DNA from: a virus
Length of the DNA: 22,926 bases
IMG/VR virus record: IMGVR_UViG_3300028610_002575
Coordinates: 1 to 22,926 of that record
Reading direction: 5' to 3' (one strand)
Both the position numbers and the translations under genes were made by a program. Below, one piece after another: positions 354 through 15,553 of the stretch. The first letter of the stretch is position 1; each line of letters opens with the position of its first letter. A model generated the notes under the pieces. It saw nothing but the letters and a program-made list of their open reading frames with translations. It was not told where the DNA came from and did no database searches.

Positions 354-711
354 TGGTGGAGGTGCCGAGAATTGAACTCGGGTCCTAAAATGATCTTCTA
401 AGCGCCTTTACGTGCGTTATGGGAACGATACAAAACATCGATCTCCACCACTTGTTTTTACATAAACAAGAAATGCTCTGGTTTTCAGTAGGCCAGCCCC
501 ACTTAAGTAGTTTTTTCCTTGCCACTCAACTCCAAGGGATCATCACTTTGGATACCAAGGCTGTGACCGCCCCGCTCTTCGTCAGCGACTAAGCTGCTTG
601 GAGTTCTTCGACATAGTTGTCAATTAGTTTTTTTGCCAGTTTTTACGTAGCCTCTGGCGCTACGGCACGAGCATCTCAGTATCAACATTCCAGTCGAAAC
701 CAGTCACCCCC
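354..711 (-). ncRNA. ssrA: Transfer-messenger RNA (tmRNA), complete
   Basis: On the - strand the 5' end reads GGGGGTGACTGGTTTCGAC and the 3' end CACCTCCACCA, so a 7-bp acceptor stem forms with a G-U third pair, the alanine identity element, and CCA is encoded. The T arm (CCCGAG-TTCAATT-CTCGG) is clear. The mRNA-like part has the usual A-rich lead-in (GGCAAAAAAACTAATT) and then an open reading frame at 621-589, GAC AAC TAT GTC GAA GAA CTC CAA GCA GCT TAG. The predicted tag is (A)DNYVEELQAA. It keeps the terminal Ala-Ala needed for ClpXP-type proteolysis but lacks the usual ALAA ending. The resume codon is placed by alignment with E. coli tmRNA; of the three frames through the A-run, this is the one without an early stop. 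tmRNA with SmpB rescues stalled ribosomes and tags the product for destruction. Confidence 0.95.
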
Positions 712-713
712 AC

Positions 714-725
714 TTAATTATACTC
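714..725 (-). promoter_or_regulatory. Promoter-like motif GAGTATAATTAA before the tmRNA
   Basis: A perfect TATAAT (722-717) sits five bases before the first G of the tmRNA. No convincing -35 hexamer is found 16-18 bases upstream. The same GAGTATAATWA string occurs at two intergenic sites inside the phage operon on the same strand, which suggests a phage promoter recognised mainly through a -10-like element. It overlaps the thioesterase stop codon. Confidence 0.5.
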
Positions 726-1221
726 AATGGTTAAGTAGAGTTTCTTTTTGAATCCTTACTTTGTCAATTAAAATTTTTCGAATCTCATATCTTTTATTAG
801 CATCTTGATTTCTTCTAATATCATTATCGGTTTTTAATTGAAGTTGAGGAACTTCAGCAGGTTTACCTATCGAATCAATAGCAATAAAAGTTAAATAAGC
901 TGTAGCTACATGAATTTGATCACCGGATCTAGGATTGTTTCTTTGAATTTTAACTCCGACTTCCATTGAAGTCCGACCCGTTCGATTAACCAAAGCACCA
1001 ATCACAGCATGATCTCCTACCTTTAATGGGTGTTTAAAAGCCAAAAAATCAATACTAGCTGTGACCACTGGTCTTAGGCAATATTTTTCAGCCGCCATCG
1101 CCGCCACCTTATCAATCCAAGACATCATTACACCTCCAAATAAAGTGCCGTGAGGATTGGTTTGATTTGGCATAACCAATTCTCTTGTTAAAACTTCACT
1201 ATCTGCTGGTGTTCTTTTCAT
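724..1221 (-). CDS. Acyl-CoA thioesterase, hot-dog fold (YciA-like)
   Basis: 165 residues. The N-terminal MPNQTNPHGTLFGGVMMSWI followed by D matches the acyl-CoA hydrolase signature, in which the Asn-x-x-Gly-x-x-(F)-Gly-Gly loop and the Asp in the long hot-dog helix are catalytic. A second strand block (TASIDFLAFKHPLKVGD, then GRTSMEVGVKI) also fits. The enzyme would hydrolyse acyl-CoA to free acid and CoA in the cytoplasm. ATG at 1221 is chosen because it is preceded by TGGGG five bases upstream; an in-frame TTG at 1287 would add 22 unlikely residues. The gene ends 12 bases before the tmRNA and is divergent from the lipoprotein gene. Such thioesterases are common in bacterial chromosomes and unusual in phages, so it may be host DNA or a captured metabolic gene. 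Confidence 0.85.
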   Translation of the reverse strand: MKRTPADSEVLTRELVMPNQTNPHGTLFGGVMMSWIDKVAAMAAEKYCLRPVVTASIDFLAFKHPLKVGDHAVIGALVNRTGRTSMEVGVKIQRNNPRSGDQIHVATAYLTFIAIDSIGKPAEVPQLQLKTDNDIRRNQDANKRYEIRKILIDKVRIQKETLLNH

Positions 1222-1295
1222 TTTAACCCCATAACTGTTTGTAATTATTAAACTTTTATAACCGAATTTAGATTGTAAACCTATCAAATCCTGGT

Positions 1296-2116: not shown

Positions 2117-3649
2117 TTACGCTTTACCGATATTTTCAATCAAGCCGCTCTTACGTGGAGCGTACAAGATAAGCGTTCCTGCAAGCCATAGCAAGAACTC
2201 TTTCGCAGTTGAGATAGCTGCGAGATTGATCTTGAGCAATGGTGCAAGTTGTTTCCAACTAAACACTTCAGGCCGCATGTCAAACATGTAAGCTGTAGCT
2301 GCTCCAGGATCTTTATTATTCTTGTCAAAGAACTTGGTTTTAGCTCCGCTTCGCTTTACATATCCAATAAAACTTCTTGGAGATGTAAGTGCTGTTCCTG
2401 CATCCTTTTCAGTACGGTAAACCGCATAGTGAGAAGGGACATTACCAGCAGCCGGGTCAAGAATATGAAAGCTAACGCTACTACCGTCAGCGGCAAGAGT
2501 AAGGTCTTCAGAGATCTGAGATCCTGATCCTTCACCCTGTTCATTAACAGCAGTTACTTCGTATCGAACGATATCGCCCGTTACAAATGTTGTTCCAGCA
2601 CCAGCGTTTTCATCGAGAGCAGCAGCAGTTCCTTCAATAACTGAAGTGGTTGCATCGTTCTCAAGATCGGCTGGAGTTCCAGGTACACCTGATCGGTCTG
2701 CCTGAGACTTTTTGCTTTCTTTTGGTTTCAAGAACACGTTAGGTCGCAATGCGATCCCACCGGCAGTTGTAACCATTTCTCGAACAATATATCCAGCTTT
2801 TCCATCCGAAACACCAAGTTGATTAACTCGTTCTTTTGGAAAGAATTGCTTGATGAAATCGCTGAGATTTTTTGGAGATAAGTGAAGTTCACTTGGTCGT
2901 CCAAAGTTCTCTACGAGAACGTTAGCAAGGCTTTCGATGTCACTCTCATTGAGAATGTCACCAGATTTTGATTGAATGACAGATTGGTCTCCACCAAATC
3001 CATCCAATGCACGGGATTGAGCACTAAAGTCACTGTCTCCTAATCGGATTTGCTGTTCGGCACCCATCAAGTTAAGATTTTGCATCTTAATTGGGATAGA
3101 ACCAATAGCTCCAGTGAAATCACCATCAGAACTATAATCAGCATTCGCTTTATAAAGTTCTCGCTCAAGTCTTTCAAGCATCCAAAGAGTACCTGAATTA
3201 GTTTCACGTCCTTCAATGTCTCCACCGAAGTTTTGTTTAACTAAAGTTGACGCTAATGAGACACCTCTTCGTGTACTCATGAACATCACCTTTTGAGCGT
3301 GTCTTTGGTATTCGGAATCGTTCATTACTGGCGATCCGCTTTCAGGGATGTAGGGACTTCCTGCATCACCATATGCGTTAATTCTTACGTACTGCTCAAC
3401 TAGAGAGTATGCTCTGTCTTGCGGTACACTAGGCCACATTACGAGATTGGTAGCGTCATACGTTACACTTTTCAGCGTTCCGTCAATGCTCTCAACGCCT
3501 AATGCGCCTCCACCTACGAGATTCGGTCCAGCAGTACTAGCGTATCCGTGACCAACCTGAAGGGTTTTTAAGAGTTCCTCAGCTTGCTCAGCGTCCATCG
3601 CCTGTGATGCGCTGGCCCCCGACTCGATGTTAAATAGATCGTCAAACAT
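2117..3649 (-). CDS. Major capsid protein (probable) with an Ig/FN3-like insertion
   Basis: 510 residues, last gene of the head operon, directly after the scaffold-like gene and downstream of the prohead protease. This order (portal, protease, scaffold, capsid) is the main evidence. The N-terminal 300 residues are mixed alpha/beta as in HK97-fold capsids. Residues about 355-442 form a beta-rich stretch (GDIVRYEVTAVNEQGEGS, later HYAVYRTEKDAG, then KTKFFD) that resembles a fibronectin-III or Ig-like domain. The C-terminal 50 residues (QLAPLLKINLAA, later LLWLAGTLILYAPRK, then ENIG) resemble the closing segment of capsid proteins of large phages. Good ribosome site GAGGAGG upstream. A decoration protein is the alternative but the size and position favour capsid. 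Confidence 0.75.
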   Translation of the reverse strand: MFDDLFNIESGASASQAMDAEQAEELLKTLQVGHGYASTAGPNLVGGGALGVESIDGTLKSVTYDATNLVMWPSVPQDRAYSLVEQYVRINAYGDAGSPYIPESGSPVMNDSEYQRHAQKVMFMSTRRGVSLASTLVKQNFGGDIEGRETNSGTLWMLERLERELYKANADYSSDGDFTGAIGSIPIKMQNLNLMGAEQQIRLGDSDFSAQSRALDGFGGDQSVIQSKSGDILNESDIESLANVLVENFGRPSELHLSPKNLSDFIKQFFPKERVNQLGVSDGKAGYIVREMVTTAGGIALRPNVFLKPKESKKSQADRSGVPGTPADLENDATTSVIEGTAAALDENAGAGTTFVTGDIVRYEVTAVNEQGEGSGSQISEDLTLAADGSSVSFHILDPAAGNVPSHYAVYRTEKDAGTALTSPRSFIGYVKRSGAKTKFFDKNNKDPGAATAYMFDMRPEVFSWKQLAPLLKINLAAISTAKEFLLWLAGTLILYAPRKSGLIENIGKA

Positions 3650-5662: not shown

Positions 5663-5962
5663 CTAAAAAATTTCTTCAAGATCTTCAATACCAAAGAGCA
5701 TTGGTACTTTGCGTCGAAATGATTGAATCACTCTTTTTACTTCAGAATCGTCGATCATCAATAATCGAGCAATTCGATGTGTGGGAACGTTACGTCCATC
5801 ATCGATCATGAATCGAAAAAAACAATAATAAGACTCAGCATCGGCAACAAACCAAGGACATCCATCTATTTTACCCTTTCGGGCTGCCATCATAGCCTTC
5901 TTTCCTAAGAAACAAGGACTGTCAGGATAACATTCAAGCCCACGAGGGCATCTTTTTTGCAA
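5663..5962 (-). CDS. Small Cys-rich protein with a helix-turn-helix-like segment
   Basis: 99 residues, starting at a TTG (5962); the frame has a stop further upstream and no ATG before the Cys block, so a non-ATG start is forced. The N-terminal third carries Cys 5, 11 and 17 (CPRGLECYPDSPC), with Cys35 and Cys47 further on, enough to bind a metal or Fe-S cluster. Residues about 60-88 (PTHRIARLLMIDDSEVKRVI) look like a helix-turn-helix. It is the first gene after the phage-type promoter motif at 6001-6012 and leads into protease, scaffold and capsid genes. A role as a late-gene regulator is possible but unproven. Confidence 0.6.
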   Translation of the reverse strand: MQKRCPRGLECYPDSPCFLGKKAMMAARKGKIDGCPWFVADAESYYCFFRFMIDDGRNVPTHRIARLLMIDDSEVKRVIQSFRRKVPMLFGIEDLEEIF

Positions 5963-6000: not shown

Positions 6001-6012
6001 TTTATTATACTC
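6001..6012 (-). promoter_or_regulatory. Promoter-like motif GAGTATAATAAA
   Basis: Contains a perfect TATAAT (6009-6004) in the 56-base spacer after the metallophosphoesterase stop, one of the few real gaps in the operon. It shares GAGTATAATWA with the sites at 714-725 and 13076-13087. No -35 match is seen. It resembles T4-type late promoters in having only an AT-rich -10 element. Confidence 0.45.
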
Positions 6013-8336: not shown

Positions 8337-9215
8337 TTAACTAATGTTGCGCTGTCTTTTGAACTCATCATGATCCTTACCTGTGTACTGTAGATTGCCA
8401 TTAGTGAATCCCCACCCCTTTTTGATCTCAACCATTACGTGACGACCATTTGGATGAGTTAAATCTACTGTGGGCTTCCAATCCTTTTTCTTTTTTCCCA
8501 CATTACTTCCATTAGCAATCAATTCACTCATTTTATATATTCGGGGAGTAACTTTATCTGGCATAAACCAAAACTGGTAACAATATTTACAGGTAACACC
8601 ATCACTAGGTCCAACTTTATAAACATAAACTTCATCAGGAGTTTTGTCTTTGTTATTGGCAAAGATAGCATCCATTGATCCGTAGTTAGACGCTCTTGCA
8701 AGTTCAGTATCAACAATCAGCTTCCAACGATTGTTCCAATCCTGAACCTTGTCTTTTAAAGCAGCACCCAAATACTTCTTATGAATATCTTTATCTCTAA
8801 GAAGATCGTAAACATGTCTACCTTCTTCTCTATTAACAAAAGGCATAACCTGAGATTCAATTTGACCTAAAATATCAGTCTCTAATTGTTGACCAGCCTT
8901 ATCAGCATATCTTTCAAACATTCGTTCTAAATAATCAATCGCACCATCTCTTGTAGTCTTTGGTGCAATTTGATTACTAAACTGCTGATGTGTCTTATTA
9001 TACGCTACTGATATGGCTGTTTTAGATGCTTTAGTAGAACTAATATAACCAGTACGCACTAAGTCCTTTAACTCTTTTTTTGAAAGTATATGAGGACCAA
9101 CTGTTCTGTACTTTAAATAATTTACAAACAGTCTGGTAAGTTGCTTAATCTTTTTTAGAGTGCTTGGTCTTAATGCCACGTTTTTTCTTTTTCTTTGGTG
9201 ATATTTCTTGACCAT
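8337..9215 (-). CDS. Minor head protein (SPP1 gp7 / Mu gpF-like)
   Basis: 292 residues, directly downstream of the portal gene and overlapping its end by 71 bases. The C-terminal half carries the pattern of this family: WKLIVDTELARASNYGS, then a pair of Cys (TCKYCYQFW) and the block DLTHPNGRHVMVEI, matching the usual Cys-x-x-Cys ... HPNCRC-like end, though the last Cys is absent here. The N-terminus is basic and helical. Such proteins sit near the portal, help form the prohead and can be ejected with the DNA. The ATG at 9215 has only a poor ribosome site; a GTG at 9179 is an alternative. Confidence 0.8.
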   Translation of the reverse strand: MVKKYHQRKRKNVALRPSTLKKIKQLTRLFVNYLKYRTVGPHILSKKELKDLVRTGYISSTKASKTAISVAYNKTHQQFSNQIAPKTTRDGAIDYLERMFERYADKAGQQLETDILGQIESQVMPFVNREEGRHVYDLLRDKDIHKKYLGAALKDKVQDWNNRWKLIVDTELARASNYGSMDAIFANNKDKTPDEVYVYKVGPSDGVTCKYCYQFWFMPDKVTPRIYKMSELIANGSNVGKKKKDWKPTVDLTHPNGRHVMVEIKKGWGFTNGNLQYTGKDHDEFKRQRNIS

Positions 9216-11505: not shown

Positions 11506-12137
11506 TATAATATTCCACCCCTTACCGTTCCGTCACAAACGGGTGCTCCTTTTATATATGCCAACCCAAGCAAAGCTGCGTCGCAAGCATCATTCATTGA
11601 ATAAGGAAGTTCTTTTCCAAATATTTCTTTAAATGCTCTTAATGCATAATCTTTTCGATTTAATGCTCTTGTTATTTTTCCATCAATTTTTGCTATTTTT
11701 CTTCTTCCAGCTTTTTTTTCTTTTGCTTTTAATCTATTTATTTTTGAATTATATTTTCGTTCATCAGCATTTTGATAAGCACCAACAAATTTTCTCCACA
11801 CACCAGTACGAACATATTTAACATCAGTAAAATCACAGTAATGATTTACGATACGATAATGAATATATTCCAATATCTTTTGAGAATAATTATTCTTACT
11901 TGATGTCGTTTCTTCGATCACAACTACACTTTCATTCGAACCAATAATAAAACCGTCTACTTTGTCCGTAATCTTTTTAAAAATCTCATCTGCAAAAGAC
12001 ACAAAATTTAATGGGTATTCACCAAAATCTTTAGCTTTTTTATCTAGAAAAATTGTTCCATAACTTATTAACTCTTTATTTTCGTAATAAGCCCATCCGG
12101 TTTTGGTGGATAAATCTAAAGATAAAACAATTTTCAT
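11505..12137 (-). CDS. RuvC-like Holliday junction resolvase
   Basis: 210 residues. RNase H-fold resolvase motifs are all visible: D8 in LSLDLSTKTGWA, a Glu pair at 75-76 (VVVIEETTSS) and D183/D186 in NDACDAALLGLAY. A basic segment at 126-160 (ADERKYNSKINRLKAKEKK and on) is inserted before the last motif and could bind DNA. The enzyme would cut four-way or branched DNA, which must be trimmed before packaging. It overlaps both neighbours by TAATG-type stop-starts, so it is translated with the portal. Its place in the head operon rather than the replication block fits a packaging-linked role. Confidence 0.85.
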   Translation of the reverse strand: MKIVLSLDLSTKTGWAYYENKELISYGTIFLDKKAKDFGEYPLNFVSFADEIFKKITDKVDGFIIGSNESVVVIEETTSSKNNYSQKILEYIHYRIVNHYCDFTDVKYVRTGVWRKFVGAYQNADERKYNSKINRLKAKEKKAGRRKIAKIDGKITRALNRKDYALRAFKEIFGKELPYSMNDACDAALLGLAYIKGAPVCDGTVRGGIL

Positions 12138-13063
12138 TACTCAGCTAAAAACAAGATCCCACTAGCAACTTCAAGTCCGGTGTTCTCCATATCTACTTGG
12201 AAAACCTTTCCTCTTTTAAGAAACAATCCAGGACTATTTACGATGTCTCCATCAGTTGGAGGTTCAACTTCGTTTCCTGTTCCAGTATCCCCATTTAATT
12301 TAACAACAACTTTTCTATCAACAGCCATAAGCATCCATTTAAATATATCTGGATAAATTACTAATCCTGTTGCGGTAACTCCGGTTATTCCTGATTCAGG
12401 TATAGAATCTGGATTTGAAAACTCTACAAGTGCATCAGTAACTCTAGTGATTATAAATTGACCACGATTAGGAAATGAAAAAGCTACATCTGTTAAATCT
12501 AAAGTATCTCCGACTTGAACTGGTCCAGAAGAATATATTTCTGCCTGAACAGTAACAGTTTCATTGGTGGCTATTTCATTTTCAAATTCAACAAAATCTG
12601 CACCGACTCTAACAATTGTAAAATCACCCTGATTAAGTACATTGAATCCTGTTCCAAGAGTTATTCCATCTCCAGCAGACATTCCTGCAAAAACTGGCGC
12701 AGTTCCTACAGTAGTCCATGTCAGGGTAACAAGTTTATTTACTTTAGTTAAAGCCCATTCAGTTGTTCCGTCGCCATCAGATCTTGCAGTTCTAGCACCA
12801 AAATCTCCAACCAATTGAGCATTAGTAGTACCCGCTACCTGCAAAACTGAAAAAGAAGTTCCAACCGTAAAACTAAGTGCCCGAGCAACCGACATTACAG
12901 TTGAACTCTCTCCAGGAGATAAATGAATAGGAACTTGTTTTGGATTATCAGTAGGTAAGCCAAGCAAAGACCATTTTAAATCTGCATGTTTTACTTGTGG
13001 ATTGATGCTTGAAGGAGCATCAGCATAAGCGACCAAGTTAAGACTAACGTTTAATAGTGACAT
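12137..13063 (-). CDS. Beta-rich structural protein with internal repeats, function unknown
   Basis: 308 residues, first gene after the promoter-like motif at 13076-13087. No signal peptide, membrane segment or catalytic motif. Two internal repeats are visible: residues 129-163 (GDGITLGTGFNVLNQGDFTI and on to VEFEN) and 184-218 (GDTLDLTDVAFSFPNRGQFI and on to VEFSN), sharing GD, a Phe-x(3)-(Q/R)G-(D/Q)F-I-(V/T)-R-V core and VEF(E/S)N. The composition (Thr, Val, Gly) is that of phage decoration or tail/fibre proteins. A ribosome site AAGGA lies six bases before the ATG. A head-decoration or vertex protein is plausible; I do not recognise a family. Confidence 0.75.
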   Translation of the reverse strand: MSLLNVSLNLVAYADAPSSINPQVKHADLKWSLLGLPTDNPKQVPIHLSPGESSTVMSVARALSFTVGTSFSVLQVAGTTNAQLVGDFGARTARSDGDGTTEWALTKVNKLVTLTWTTVGTAPVFAGMSAGDGITLGTGFNVLNQGDFTIVRVGADFVEFENEIATNETVTVQAEIYSSGPVQVGDTLDLTDVAFSFPNRGQFIITRVTDALVEFSNPDSIPESGITGVTATGLVIYPDIFKWMLMAVDRKVVVKLNGDTGTGNEVEPPTDGDIVNSPGLFLKRGKVFQVDMENTGLEVASGILFLAE

Positions 13064-13075
13064 AGAAATCCTTAT

Positions 13076-13087
13076 ATTATTATACTC
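13076..13087 (-). promoter_or_regulatory. Promoter-like motif GAGTATAATAAT
   Basis: A perfect TATAAT (13084-13079) lies in the 40-base gap between the homing endonuclease stop and the ATG at 13063. Initiation about seven bases downstream would give a leader of about ten bases that still holds the AAGGA ribosome site. It shares GAGTATAATWA with the sites at 714-725 and 6001-6012. Confidence 0.45.
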
Positions 13088-13108
13088 CTTAGGATTTTAC
13101 GTCCTAAG
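13088..13108 (-). other. Inverted repeat between homing endonuclease and next gene
   Basis: A 7-bp stem (CTTAGGA with TCCTAAG) and a 7-base loop. It covers the TAG stop of the homing endonuclease gene and abuts the promoter-like motif. No T tract follows on the - strand, so it is not a clear terminator; it may be an RNA structure or a protein site. Confidence 0.4.
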
Positions 13109-13676
13109 CCCTAGCATTTTTTGTGCGCCTAACGGATTCAGCAATCCTTTTCTTTGTTTCTTCTGAATGACGCTTTCCATAAAATGAATTATTTTGACCT
13201 AATTGTCTTTGAGACATCTTCTTTCTGGATTCAGTGCTATGTTTTTTGCCTTTCATTGATGACCAGTGCTTTGAGACACCTTTACGAGAGGCAGACATTT
13301 TAGATCTCGTTTCAAGAGAATGCCTTTTACCTGTAGCAATCTTTCTTAAATATTCAATAGTTTCTGGAGTATGTTTTTTAAAAGCACCGTCTTGGCCACC
13401 ATGAGTGACATTATATCCATTAGGTCTTTGGGTTTTTAATATCTGTATATAGTATTGCTCCAAGGCATCTGTTGCATCCTGAGCATAAGTTACAGCAAGT
13501 ATTTTTTTCTTGAATGCATCTCGTCCATATTTTTTTAATGCTCTACCAAGAGGAAATCTTTGATTTCTTTTTTCAAGATGTTGATTAAATCTTTTAGATA
13601 ATCGTTGCTTTGTTTGTCCAATATAAGATTTTCCAGTAATTTTACATGTAAGACAATAAATCTTATAAATACGCAT
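13104..13676 (-). CDS. GIY-YIG homing endonuclease with NUMOD3-type repeats
   Basis: 190 residues. The N-terminal nuclease domain has the KIYC ... SYIGQT pair (the GIY-YIG motif), a conserved Arg/His region (RLSKRFNQHL), the catalytic Glu in DALEQYYI and the Asn of GYNVTHGGQ. After it come several copies of the short DNA-binding NUMOD3 motif (RSKMSASRKG, SRKKMSQRQLGQ, GKRHSEETKKRIAES). ATG at 13676 is chosen since it lies two bases after the terminase stop with GGAG upstream; an in-frame ATG at 13694 lies inside the terminase gene. Free-standing homing genes of this class cut a homologous unoccupied site and spread by recombination. Here the likely target is the end of the terminase gene or its junction. 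Confidence 0.9.
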   Translation of the reverse strand: MRIYKIYCLTCKITGKSYIGQTKQRLSKRFNQHLEKRNQRFPLGRALKKYGRDAFKKKILAVTYAQDATDALEQYYIQILKTQRPNGYNVTHGGQDGAFKKHTPETIEYLRKIATGKRHSLETRSKMSASRKGVSKHWSSMKGKKHSTESRKKMSQRQLGQNNSFYGKRHSEETKKRIAESVRRTKNARA

Positions 13677-13678
13677 AC

Positions 13679-15553
13679 TTACGTCCAGCTCCACAGAGCC
13701 GATCCAGGTCTGCCATTTGGATCGTCATCGTCATCGTCATTCCCACCATCATCTCTGTTATCGAGATATTGAATGCCATGATCTAATGCAATTTTCTCAA
13801 GTGAAGGGATATTAGTTGGATTGCCTTGAGAATCCACCATTCCAGCACCGGAATACTCAGTACCAAGTCTCATTCGCATACGACCAAACAACCACCAACA
13901 CATATAGCGCAATGCATCTAGGTAATGATTATGTTCATCTGCTGGATCATCATCATCCAGAATCCGACCAGCAACATCCATTTTTTTATGATAGAGATCA
14001 AACTCTTCTAAAATGCCCTTATGGTTTTGTTTTCTTTTTGAATCTAGATCTGGTGCAAAAAACATTCTTGACTGACCATTAGTACCAGGAACCTTTAAAA
14101 GGCCTTTAATTACATTTATCCCAAGATTAATTGATTTATTAATGTCATCGGTTGTCGGAAGTTCTGCTTGGCGTAAAAGTTCGTTGCCTGATCCATTTGC
14201 CAAATCAGGACAATACATTTGAATACCATATTTTTTATTAATCGTTGTTCTAATGAGTTCAATAAATTCTGGATCACTAGTGAGAGTTCTTCCAACCGTA
14301 TCAATAACATAACAAAAATCTCTTTTATCAATAGCCATAACAACACAGGTCGATGGTGATGACCAACCCCAGTCATTTCCGGCATAGAATGTGGCACCCT
14401 TTTTCTTAAGTGCTTTGATAAATTGTTCTCTAGTAACTTCAAAACCAGCAGGTTCACCGATAAGGGTTTCCCACATAGCATTCCATCCAGGAACATGAAT
14501 TTGACGATCGAATTCAAAGTAAATCAATCCTTCAGTAGATGGTCTGAGTGACATAATTTGAGCAACGCCCCAGTCCCAAGATCCGGCAAGCCTAATTTTA
14601 TTAATAACGTCATCAATAGTTCTAAGTAATGGACTTTTTGAAATTTGTTTTTTAAGATCTCCACAACAAAAAGCAGCTATTGGGCACTGACGACATTTAT
14701 CAAACGTATCTTCAGTTAATTCAAAACCTTCTTTTCTTGCATCGGGAAGTGAACTATATTCTGTTTCAGTAAATTTATCTCCCCGATATGGATTTATATA
14801 TAAATAGGTAGGGATTGTTCCACTTCGTTCATCAGAACATCTTTCAGTAGCATCAAGAGTTGTCCATTTTAAAATTTTTAATCCTGATTCAGCAGCGTTA
14901 CGGATTTCTTCCTCGGCTAAAGAATGGCTTGTTTGACGAGAGGTAATCTTAACCGTAACAGCAGGCTTTCCATTTGTACTAGAACCCAAGATTCCATGAG
15001 CATCTTTATAAGCTTTTACGTTTGCCGGTTCCATTGATGATGCGACTTCATCAAAAGTAAGTAAAGAACAGTGTCCGCCTTGCACCTGCTTGGGTGTGGC
15101 AGAAAGAAGTTCCATACCCACTTCTTCATTATTAATTTTAAGCGTAATCTCTCTAGTGTTTTGTTTAATGATTGCGTTATTTAAAAATTCATTTCGAGTT
15201 AAAAACTTCTCAAGATAATTTCTTGCACGAGATCCTTGTTGTGCAGTCATAGCAATATGAATAGTATGTCTTCCATCATGAACAAATGAAAGTAAGTCAA
15301 TAACACTCAAACCAAGCGTTTTAAATGAATCTCGTCCAGCTAAACCAAGAACACCCAAAGGTCTTCCGTCCATAATGGCTGAATAAACAGTCCATATAAA
15401 ATCCATCGGATTTGAAGTAGAAAAGCGAGAAATAGTTGTCCCAGGAAAATCTAATCCAGTATGATATTTAATCCAAGCATGAAGATGCTCCTTATCTGAA
15501 CAAGGAGTCATTAGGAGCGCTAGTCGCTCCTGTTCAGTCGTCTGATGTGGCAT
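13679..15553 (-). CDS. terL: Large terminase subunit (ATPase and nuclease)
   Basis: 624 residues. ATPase: a divergent Walker A GLAGRDSFKT (70-79), Walker B LLTFDEV (164-170, D168/E169) and a coupling motif ITSRQTS near 203-209. Nuclease domain (RNase H-like): D394 in GNDWGWSSP, D450 in YCPDLANG, and the acidic end DEHNHYLDALRY with D546. Between the domains is an unusual Cys cluster, C287-RQ-C290-P, then C296-C297, with another Cys at 239. The C-terminal 35 residues are acidic (GGNDDDDDD), encoded by a run of GTCATC hexamers on the + strand (13721-13740). The protein cuts concatemers and pumps DNA through the portal. The start overlaps the putative small terminase by 20 bases. Confidence 0.93.
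   Translation of the reverse strand: MPHQTTEQERLALLMTPCSDKEHLHAWIKYHTGLDFPGTTISRFSTSNPMDFIWTVYSAIMDGRPLGVLGLAGRDSFKTLGLSVIDLLSFVHDGRHTIHIAMTAQQGSRARNYLEKFLTRNEFLNNAIIKQNTREITLKINNEEVGMELLSATPKQVQGGHCSLLTFDEVASSMEPANVKAYKDAHGILGSSTNGKPAVTVKITSRQTSHSLAEEEIRNAAESGLKILKWTTLDATERCSDERSGTIPTYLYINPYRGDKFTETEYSSLPDARKEGFELTEDTFDKCRQCPIAAFCCGDLKKQISKSPLLRTIDDVINKIRLAGSWDWGVAQIMSLRPSTEGLIYFEFDRQIHVPGWNAMWETLIGEPAGFEVTREQFIKALKKKGATFYAGNDWGWSSPSTCVVMAIDKRDFCYVIDTVGRTLTSDPEFIELIRTTINKKYGIQMYCPDLANGSGNELLRQAELPTTDDINKSINLGINVIKGLLKVPGTNGQSRMFFAPDLDSKRKQNHKGILEEFDLYHKKMDVAGRILDDDDPADEHNHYLDALRYMCWWLFGRMRMRLGTEYSGAGMVDSQGNPTNIPSLEKIALDHGIQYLDNRDDGGNDDDDDDPNGRPGSALWSWT

Follow-up and report, generated by a model that had tools for sequence, protein, structure and literature searches.

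A complete one-piece tmRNA in phage DNA

The window, by which we mean the whole stretch of DNA analysed, is the 22.9 kb linear IMG/VR record IMGVR_UViG_3300028610_002575, and coordinates refer to it unless another record is named. The following features lie at or near its left end, some of them also present in a second contig, L002:

1–351, plus strand: 3' end of nadV (nicotinamide phosphoribosyltransferase; Pfam NAPRTase), convergent with the tmRNA across a 2 nt gap; the full 470-aa gene is in L002
354–711, minus strand: one-piece tmRNA (ssrA), 358 nt, CCA encoded (ARAGORN; Rfam RF00023, 120.4 bits); identical copy in L002
354–364, minus strand: 3' half of the acceptor stem, CACCUCC, followed by ACCA
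589–621, minus strand: tag reading frame, with GAC (Asp) resume codon, DNYVEELQAA and UAG stop (ARAGORN)
635–664, minus strand: PK1 pseudoknot, S1 CGUAGC/GCUACG and S2 GCCAG/CUGGC (script search for knots)
705–711, minus strand: 5' half of the acceptor stem, GGGGGUG, with G3 paired to U (alanine identity)
724–1287, minus strand: acyl-CoA thioesterase (4HBT, YciA-like), 12 nt upstream of the tmRNA on the same strand
2117–3649, minus strand: major capsid protein, SPO1-like (phrog_752), the synteny anchor

The same tmRNA span, 354–711 on the minus strand, is called by both ARAGORN and the Rfam covariance model RF00023. The covariance-model search had been proposed by an earlier, sequence-only reading of this DNA, and the model matches over its full length (1–374) with 120.4 bits and an E-value of 6.5e-47, against a gathering score of 47 bits. 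The score lies below those of two bacterial tmRNAs (120 versus 171–213 bits), and Rfam calls no riboswitch family alongside the tmRNA. The acceptor stem (GGGGGTG/CACCTCC) comprises seven pairs, the third of which is G-U (G3-U70), and is followed by a discriminator A and an encoded CCA, while the T arm is intact and carries the canonical T loop GTTCAATTC. Thus, the earlier claim of a complete tmRNA with a G-U third pair and an encoded CCA is confirmed by the two programs and by the acceptor stem itself.

PK1 forms a perfect H-type pseudoknot of 6+5 bp that ends 13 nt upstream of the resume codon GAC. The TAATT upstream of GAC represents the usual context, and this placement agrees with the position of the resume codon in the Rfam consensus. 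The peptide added by the tmRNA is predicted to be Ala followed by DNYVEELQAA, with a polar residue at position -3, such that the tag lacks the ALAA ending, as had been read from the sequence and as ARAGORN also finds. Overall, the RNA folds better than its dinucleotide shuffles (z -3.1). Rfam aligns the region of pseudoknots 2–4, located 3' of the tag, with low posterior, and the relatives are few for covariation.

The gaps flanking the tmRNA are exactly as described before, with positions 712–723 separating it from the stop of the thioesterase gene and positions 352–353 from the stop of nadV. To the right of the tmRNA, the window encodes the SPO1-like major capsid protein, a head maturation protease, the portal and the terminase, as well as RecA-like and SbcD-like proteins, an SSB and a DnaE-type polymerase. 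To the left, L002, which overlaps the window over 11,063 bp at 99.97% identity and contains an identical tmRNA, reaches 7.1 kb past the end of the window, where it encodes the whole of nadV, an RlmN/Cfr-like radical SAM protein, a bifunctional NadM-Nudix protein, six tRNAs and an Ig-domain lipoprotein. No host genes are seen left of the tmRNA in this extension, and no integrase was found in the window, L002 or the related record G002. The tmRNA belongs to the phage and not to the host. The sequence-only reading had named host chromosomal genes to the left of nadV as the observation that would speak against a tmRNA brought by the phage; in L002 phage genes and tRNAs stand there instead, and relatives have a tmRNA in the same interval (see below), which leaves its other suggestion, a host ssrA or integration locus, unsupported.

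Several neighbouring genes merit mention in their own right. The radical SAM gene of L002 (12138–13124, minus strand), between nadV and nadM-Nudix, scores far under the family cut-offs for RlmN/Cfr and is possibly a phage rRNA-modifying enzyme. The YciA-like thioesterase (724–1287, minus strand) is found here in a phage genome; its sole relative among viral contigs is the same virus, L002, and it has no relative in the genome-contig collection. An ORF at 13104–13694 (minus strand), with the terminase on one side and the next virion gene on the other, resembles a GIY-YIG-type homing endonuclease when its translation is inspected by eye.

The tmRNA occupies the same interval in related phages

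Capsid- and terminase-based searches retrieved the relatives G002 (46 kb), G005 (157 kb), G003, G006, G007, G008 and G009, every record in the group being a genome fragment. The major capsid proteins of G002 and G005 are 72–74% identical to that of the window, and in the four records compared (G002, G003, G005 and G006) synteny with the window extends over the head, packaging and replication genes at 30–75% protein identity. A single tmRNA is present in G002 and likewise in G005; in both it shares the strand of the head genes and has the capsid gene on one side and a tRNA cluster on the other, as in the window and L002. In addition, the stretch separating capsid gene from tmRNA contains, in the window as in G002, a related lipoprotein gene of the opposite orientation, and nadV/nadM lie on the far side of the tmRNA in window/L002 and in G002. 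These arrangements suggest that the tmRNAs of the clade go back to a single phage tmRNA.

The tmRNA of G009 resides at another site, where it immediately follows the homologue of gene 8337–9215 within the head operon, so that a separate gain or a move has taken place at least once. No tmRNA was seen in G003, G006 or G007, of which G003 and G006 extend many kilobases past the capsid gene, so the tmRNA is dispensable. The tmRNAs of the relatives are only 45–52% identical in sequence, and a DNA search with the window tmRNA against phage records gave no match; a PK1-like knot with different bases can nonetheless be drawn in G002, G005 and Mx1, and a weaker one in G009. A tyrosine recombinase domain (31.7 bits) is encoded at 29280–29759 of G005 (L024–L031), far from the tmRNA of that record.

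The nearest named phage is Mx1, whose nadV is 54% identical to that of the window and whose terminase, at 27%, is the only terminase match in 50,697 phage records. The phage of the window is best explained as a lytic-type large phage that is distantly related to Myxococcus phage Mx1.

A probable promoter element common to the tmRNA and phage genes

A short element stands directly before the tmRNA and at two further positions between genes:

714–725, minus strand: GAGTATAATTAA, probable phage promoter element, directly before the tmRNA
6001–6012, minus strand: second copy, GAGTATAATAAA, intergenic, upstream of gene 5663–5962
13076–13087, minus strand: third copy, GAGTATAATAAT, between genes and 22 nt upstream of the virion-region gene 12137–13063

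The sequence-only reading had this motif occurring twice more in the phage operon, which holds for two near-copies with the same core, GAGTATAATAAA and GAGTATAATAAT, but not for the exact 12-mer GAGTATAATTAA, which has a single occurrence in the window (714–725). With two mismatches, the 12-mer occurs at chance level (6 matches versus 4.55 expected). The core GAGTATAATWA has three occurrences on the minus strand and none on the plus strand, with 0.007 expected per strand, and all three sites are intergenic. Since it favours one strand by 3 to 0 and always lies between genes, the core supports the idea of a promoter, and the earlier proposal of an upstream motif common to the tmRNA and phage genes is upheld in this form.

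The relatives show a similar bias, with GTATAAT, often intergenic, distributed between the head-gene strand and the other strand at 15 to 2 in G002 and 13 to 3 in G005. GTATAATA also stands before the homologues of gene 12137–13063 in G002 and G003, and GTATAATAG directly before the G002 tmRNA; GTATAAT is absent in front of the G005 tmRNA. We note that the strand-biased GTATAATA sites of G002 (L039–L041) and G005 (L024–L031) often show CAAAA on their upstream side and are followed by an ATG at a distance of about 10 nt or less, which suggests a phage-specific promoter giving near-leaderless mRNAs.

In front of the window tmRNA, the last base of TATAAT lies 5 nt upstream of the mature 5' end. 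A sigma-70 -35 hexamer is absent at normal spacing, and TTGACA lies 39 nt before TATAAT. The natural reading is probably an extended -10 promoter of phage type with a transcription start close to the mature 5' end; transcripts reading through from the thioesterase gene represent another possible route.

The tag differs between syntenic phages

The predicted tags are DNYVEELQAA in the window, DNSNVVRPAFGARAVSMAA in G002, ANDNVVRVDFSRKADLRLVA in G005, DEEQYFQAAA in G009 and VNTNVFGSQMMAAA in Mx1. The window tag comprises 10 residues versus 19–20 in G002 and G005. When compared by eye, the latter two look homologous because they have NVVRxxF and a basic-Ala segment in common, whereas the window tag bears no resemblance to either. 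By contrast, one-piece tmRNAs across a bacterial phylum keep AND[ED]xYALAA-like tags. A relaxed form of the window tag, NY-[VAIMT]-[ED][ED]-[LF]-x-AA, yielded three chance matches in 84,980 species genomes, none of them with a tmRNA.

Among nine one-piece tags read from an unbiased sample of viral contigs carrying a tmRNA 5' signature, four have a QAA or KAA ending, two of the four being near-identical, and a targeted viral search gave many more tags of this type, mostly AQAA. Among 200 Pseudomonadota genomes, the QAA/KAA pattern had nine matches and no tmRNA, with about 20 one-piece tmRNAs of the sample having a hydrophobic-Ala-Ala end, and among 149 Bacillota genomes there were two matches, neither called by ARAGORN and one tmRNA-like by eye. 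These counts hint at a higher frequency of polar -3 residues among viral tmRNAs, which we treat as a lead rather than a result because the host phyla are not matched between the samples. The viral contigs L052 and L073 have near-identical tags, ANNDVELDNFAQAA and ANNDVELDDFALAA, which are distinguished by an L-to-Q change at -3 and an N-to-D change earlier, and form a natural pair for probing how ClpXP handles the -3 residue.

In E. coli, the Ala-Ala end dominates recognition by ClpX, and changing the Leu at -3 raises KM only modestly (PMC7652416). As the C-terminal Ala-Ala is kept in the window tag and the -3 effect is modest in E. coli, any effect of the tag on handling by ClpXP or SspB, of the kind suggested by the sequence-only reading, would probably be graded.

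Proposed role and alternative readings

Given the anatomy, phage location, syntenic relatives and common promoter element described above, we consider it very likely that the locus encodes a working one-piece tmRNA that belongs to the translation kit of a large phage, has a phage-type promoter and rescues ribosomes with the help of the host. In such a scheme, the tmRNA, adjoining tRNAs and NAD-salvage genes, would be expressed from the probable extended -10 promoter immediately preceding it, charged with alanine by the host AlaRS and bound by the host SmpB. Neither SmpB nor a ClpP-like protein was found in the records of the group, a ClpP-like protein being present only in Mx1, and the SmpB would therefore have to be that of the host. 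The charged tmRNA would enter ribosomes stalled on broken mRNAs, which should be abundant while the phage takes over the cell, and Ala-DNYVEELQAA would be joined to the nascent chain, such that its Ala-Ala end could be read by ClpXP-type proteases. Ribosome rescue, which would keep ribosomes free for the phage, is the most likely role. The relatives that lack a tmRNA, the modest Rfam score beside the two bacterial tmRNAs and the missing GTATAAT in front of the G005 tmRNA weigh against this scheme.

Alternatively, the tmRNA gene may have been taken recently from the host, reproducing the host tag and simply adding copies, the tags of these phages differing because their hosts differ. The strong differences between the tags of otherwise syntenic phages would fit such an origin, as would the lineage-specific tmRNAs that Melnitz-type phages follow (PMC9004378). 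However, no tmRNA in the 84,980 species genomes has the relaxed window tag, and the low identity of the tmRNAs between relatives is also unfavourable, making this a possibility that we hold tentatively and on balance doubt.

It is also conceivable, but unlikely, that the tmRNA serves mainly to install a different tag, so that tagged chains are handled unlike host-tagged ones through slower delivery to ClpXP, lack of SspB delivery or another protease, thereby protecting phage proteins or redirecting turnover. A tag unrelated to those of close relatives is what such a function could produce, and it would also accommodate the recurrence of polar -3 residues in viral one-piece tags in both the unbiased and the targeted searches, when the sampled Pseudomonadota and Bacillota genomes yielded no confirmed tmRNA with the QAA/KAA pattern and the Pseudomonadota tmRNAs favoured hydrophobic-Ala-Ala ends. 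Yet the window tag keeps the Ala-Ala end, a change at -3 has modest consequences in E. coli (PMC7652416), and the sampled phyla probably do not include that of the host. A more speculative extension, which we regard as a long shot, is that tags are a fast-evolving phage trait, with the switch between unrelated tags of 10 and 19–20 residues within one syntenic lineage and the polar residue at the ClpX-contacting -3 position serving to route rescued polypeptides away from the host's normal tag recognition.

A decaying, non-functional relic could explain the divergence from the Rfam consensus and the low posterior in the downstream pseudoknots; this is quite improbable, since the acceptor stem, T arm, G-U pair, CCA, PK1 and the open tag frame with its stop are all intact and related phages keep the same features with different bases. 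Finally, although ssrA is a common integration target (PMC9004378, PMC11915505), a host ssrA at the attachment site of an integrated prophage is hardly credible and we reject it, because L002 continues past the tmRNA for seven more kilobases with phage genes and tRNAs, G002 and G005 have their tmRNA in the same interval and no integrase was found in the window, L002 or G002, so that only a chimeric assembly common to both contigs could rescue it.

The present group combines a tmRNA whose location recurs among several relatives, under what resembles a phage promoter, with tags that have changed wholly. With the host tag in hand, these phages would allow a direct test of whether the degradation tag is copied or deliberately altered.

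Comparison with known tmRNA systems

Phage tmRNAs are already documented (PMC9004378, PMC4131195), having been reported in 402 of 18,146 phage genomes (PMC9004378), and the tmRNA of the window adds another. Its architecture and RNA family are those of bacterial ssrA (RF00023), from which it is distinguished by its lower score, its location in phage DNA and a tag whose relaxed form is not found with a tmRNA in the species genomes. Full tmRNAs are likewise found in the large virulent Mycobacterium phages Bxz1, Wildcat and Cali and Bacillus phage G (PMC4131195), whereas the present one belongs to another phage lineage, host and tag, with an Asp resume codon and an LQAA end. Melnitz and the pelagimyophages provide a further case of an environmental-phage tmRNA under phage promoter control (PMC9004378), but the Melnitz tmRNA is permuted, two-piece and accompanied by a glutamine riboswitch, in contrast to the one-piece form observed here. 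Mycobacterium phage DS6A also has a tmRNA-derived RNA, consisting of the tRNA-like domain only and lacking the tag frame that is complete in the window, and an RNA similar to the DS6A form inhibits the host tmRNA (PMC4131195, PMC11915505).

The closest named relative by nadV and terminase, Mx1, likewise has its tmRNA among tRNAs, although it differs in its tag (VNTNVFGSQMMAAA), a Val resume codon, a CCA that is not encoded and an identity of 45% to the window tmRNA. The Mx1 tmRNA, which we locate at 46646–47022 of OR576727.2 (1501–1877 of locus L017), is unannotated; the Mx1 genome paper lists 22 tRNAs and no tmRNA, and a small ORF called a Hef-like endonuclease overlies the 3' part of the tmRNA.
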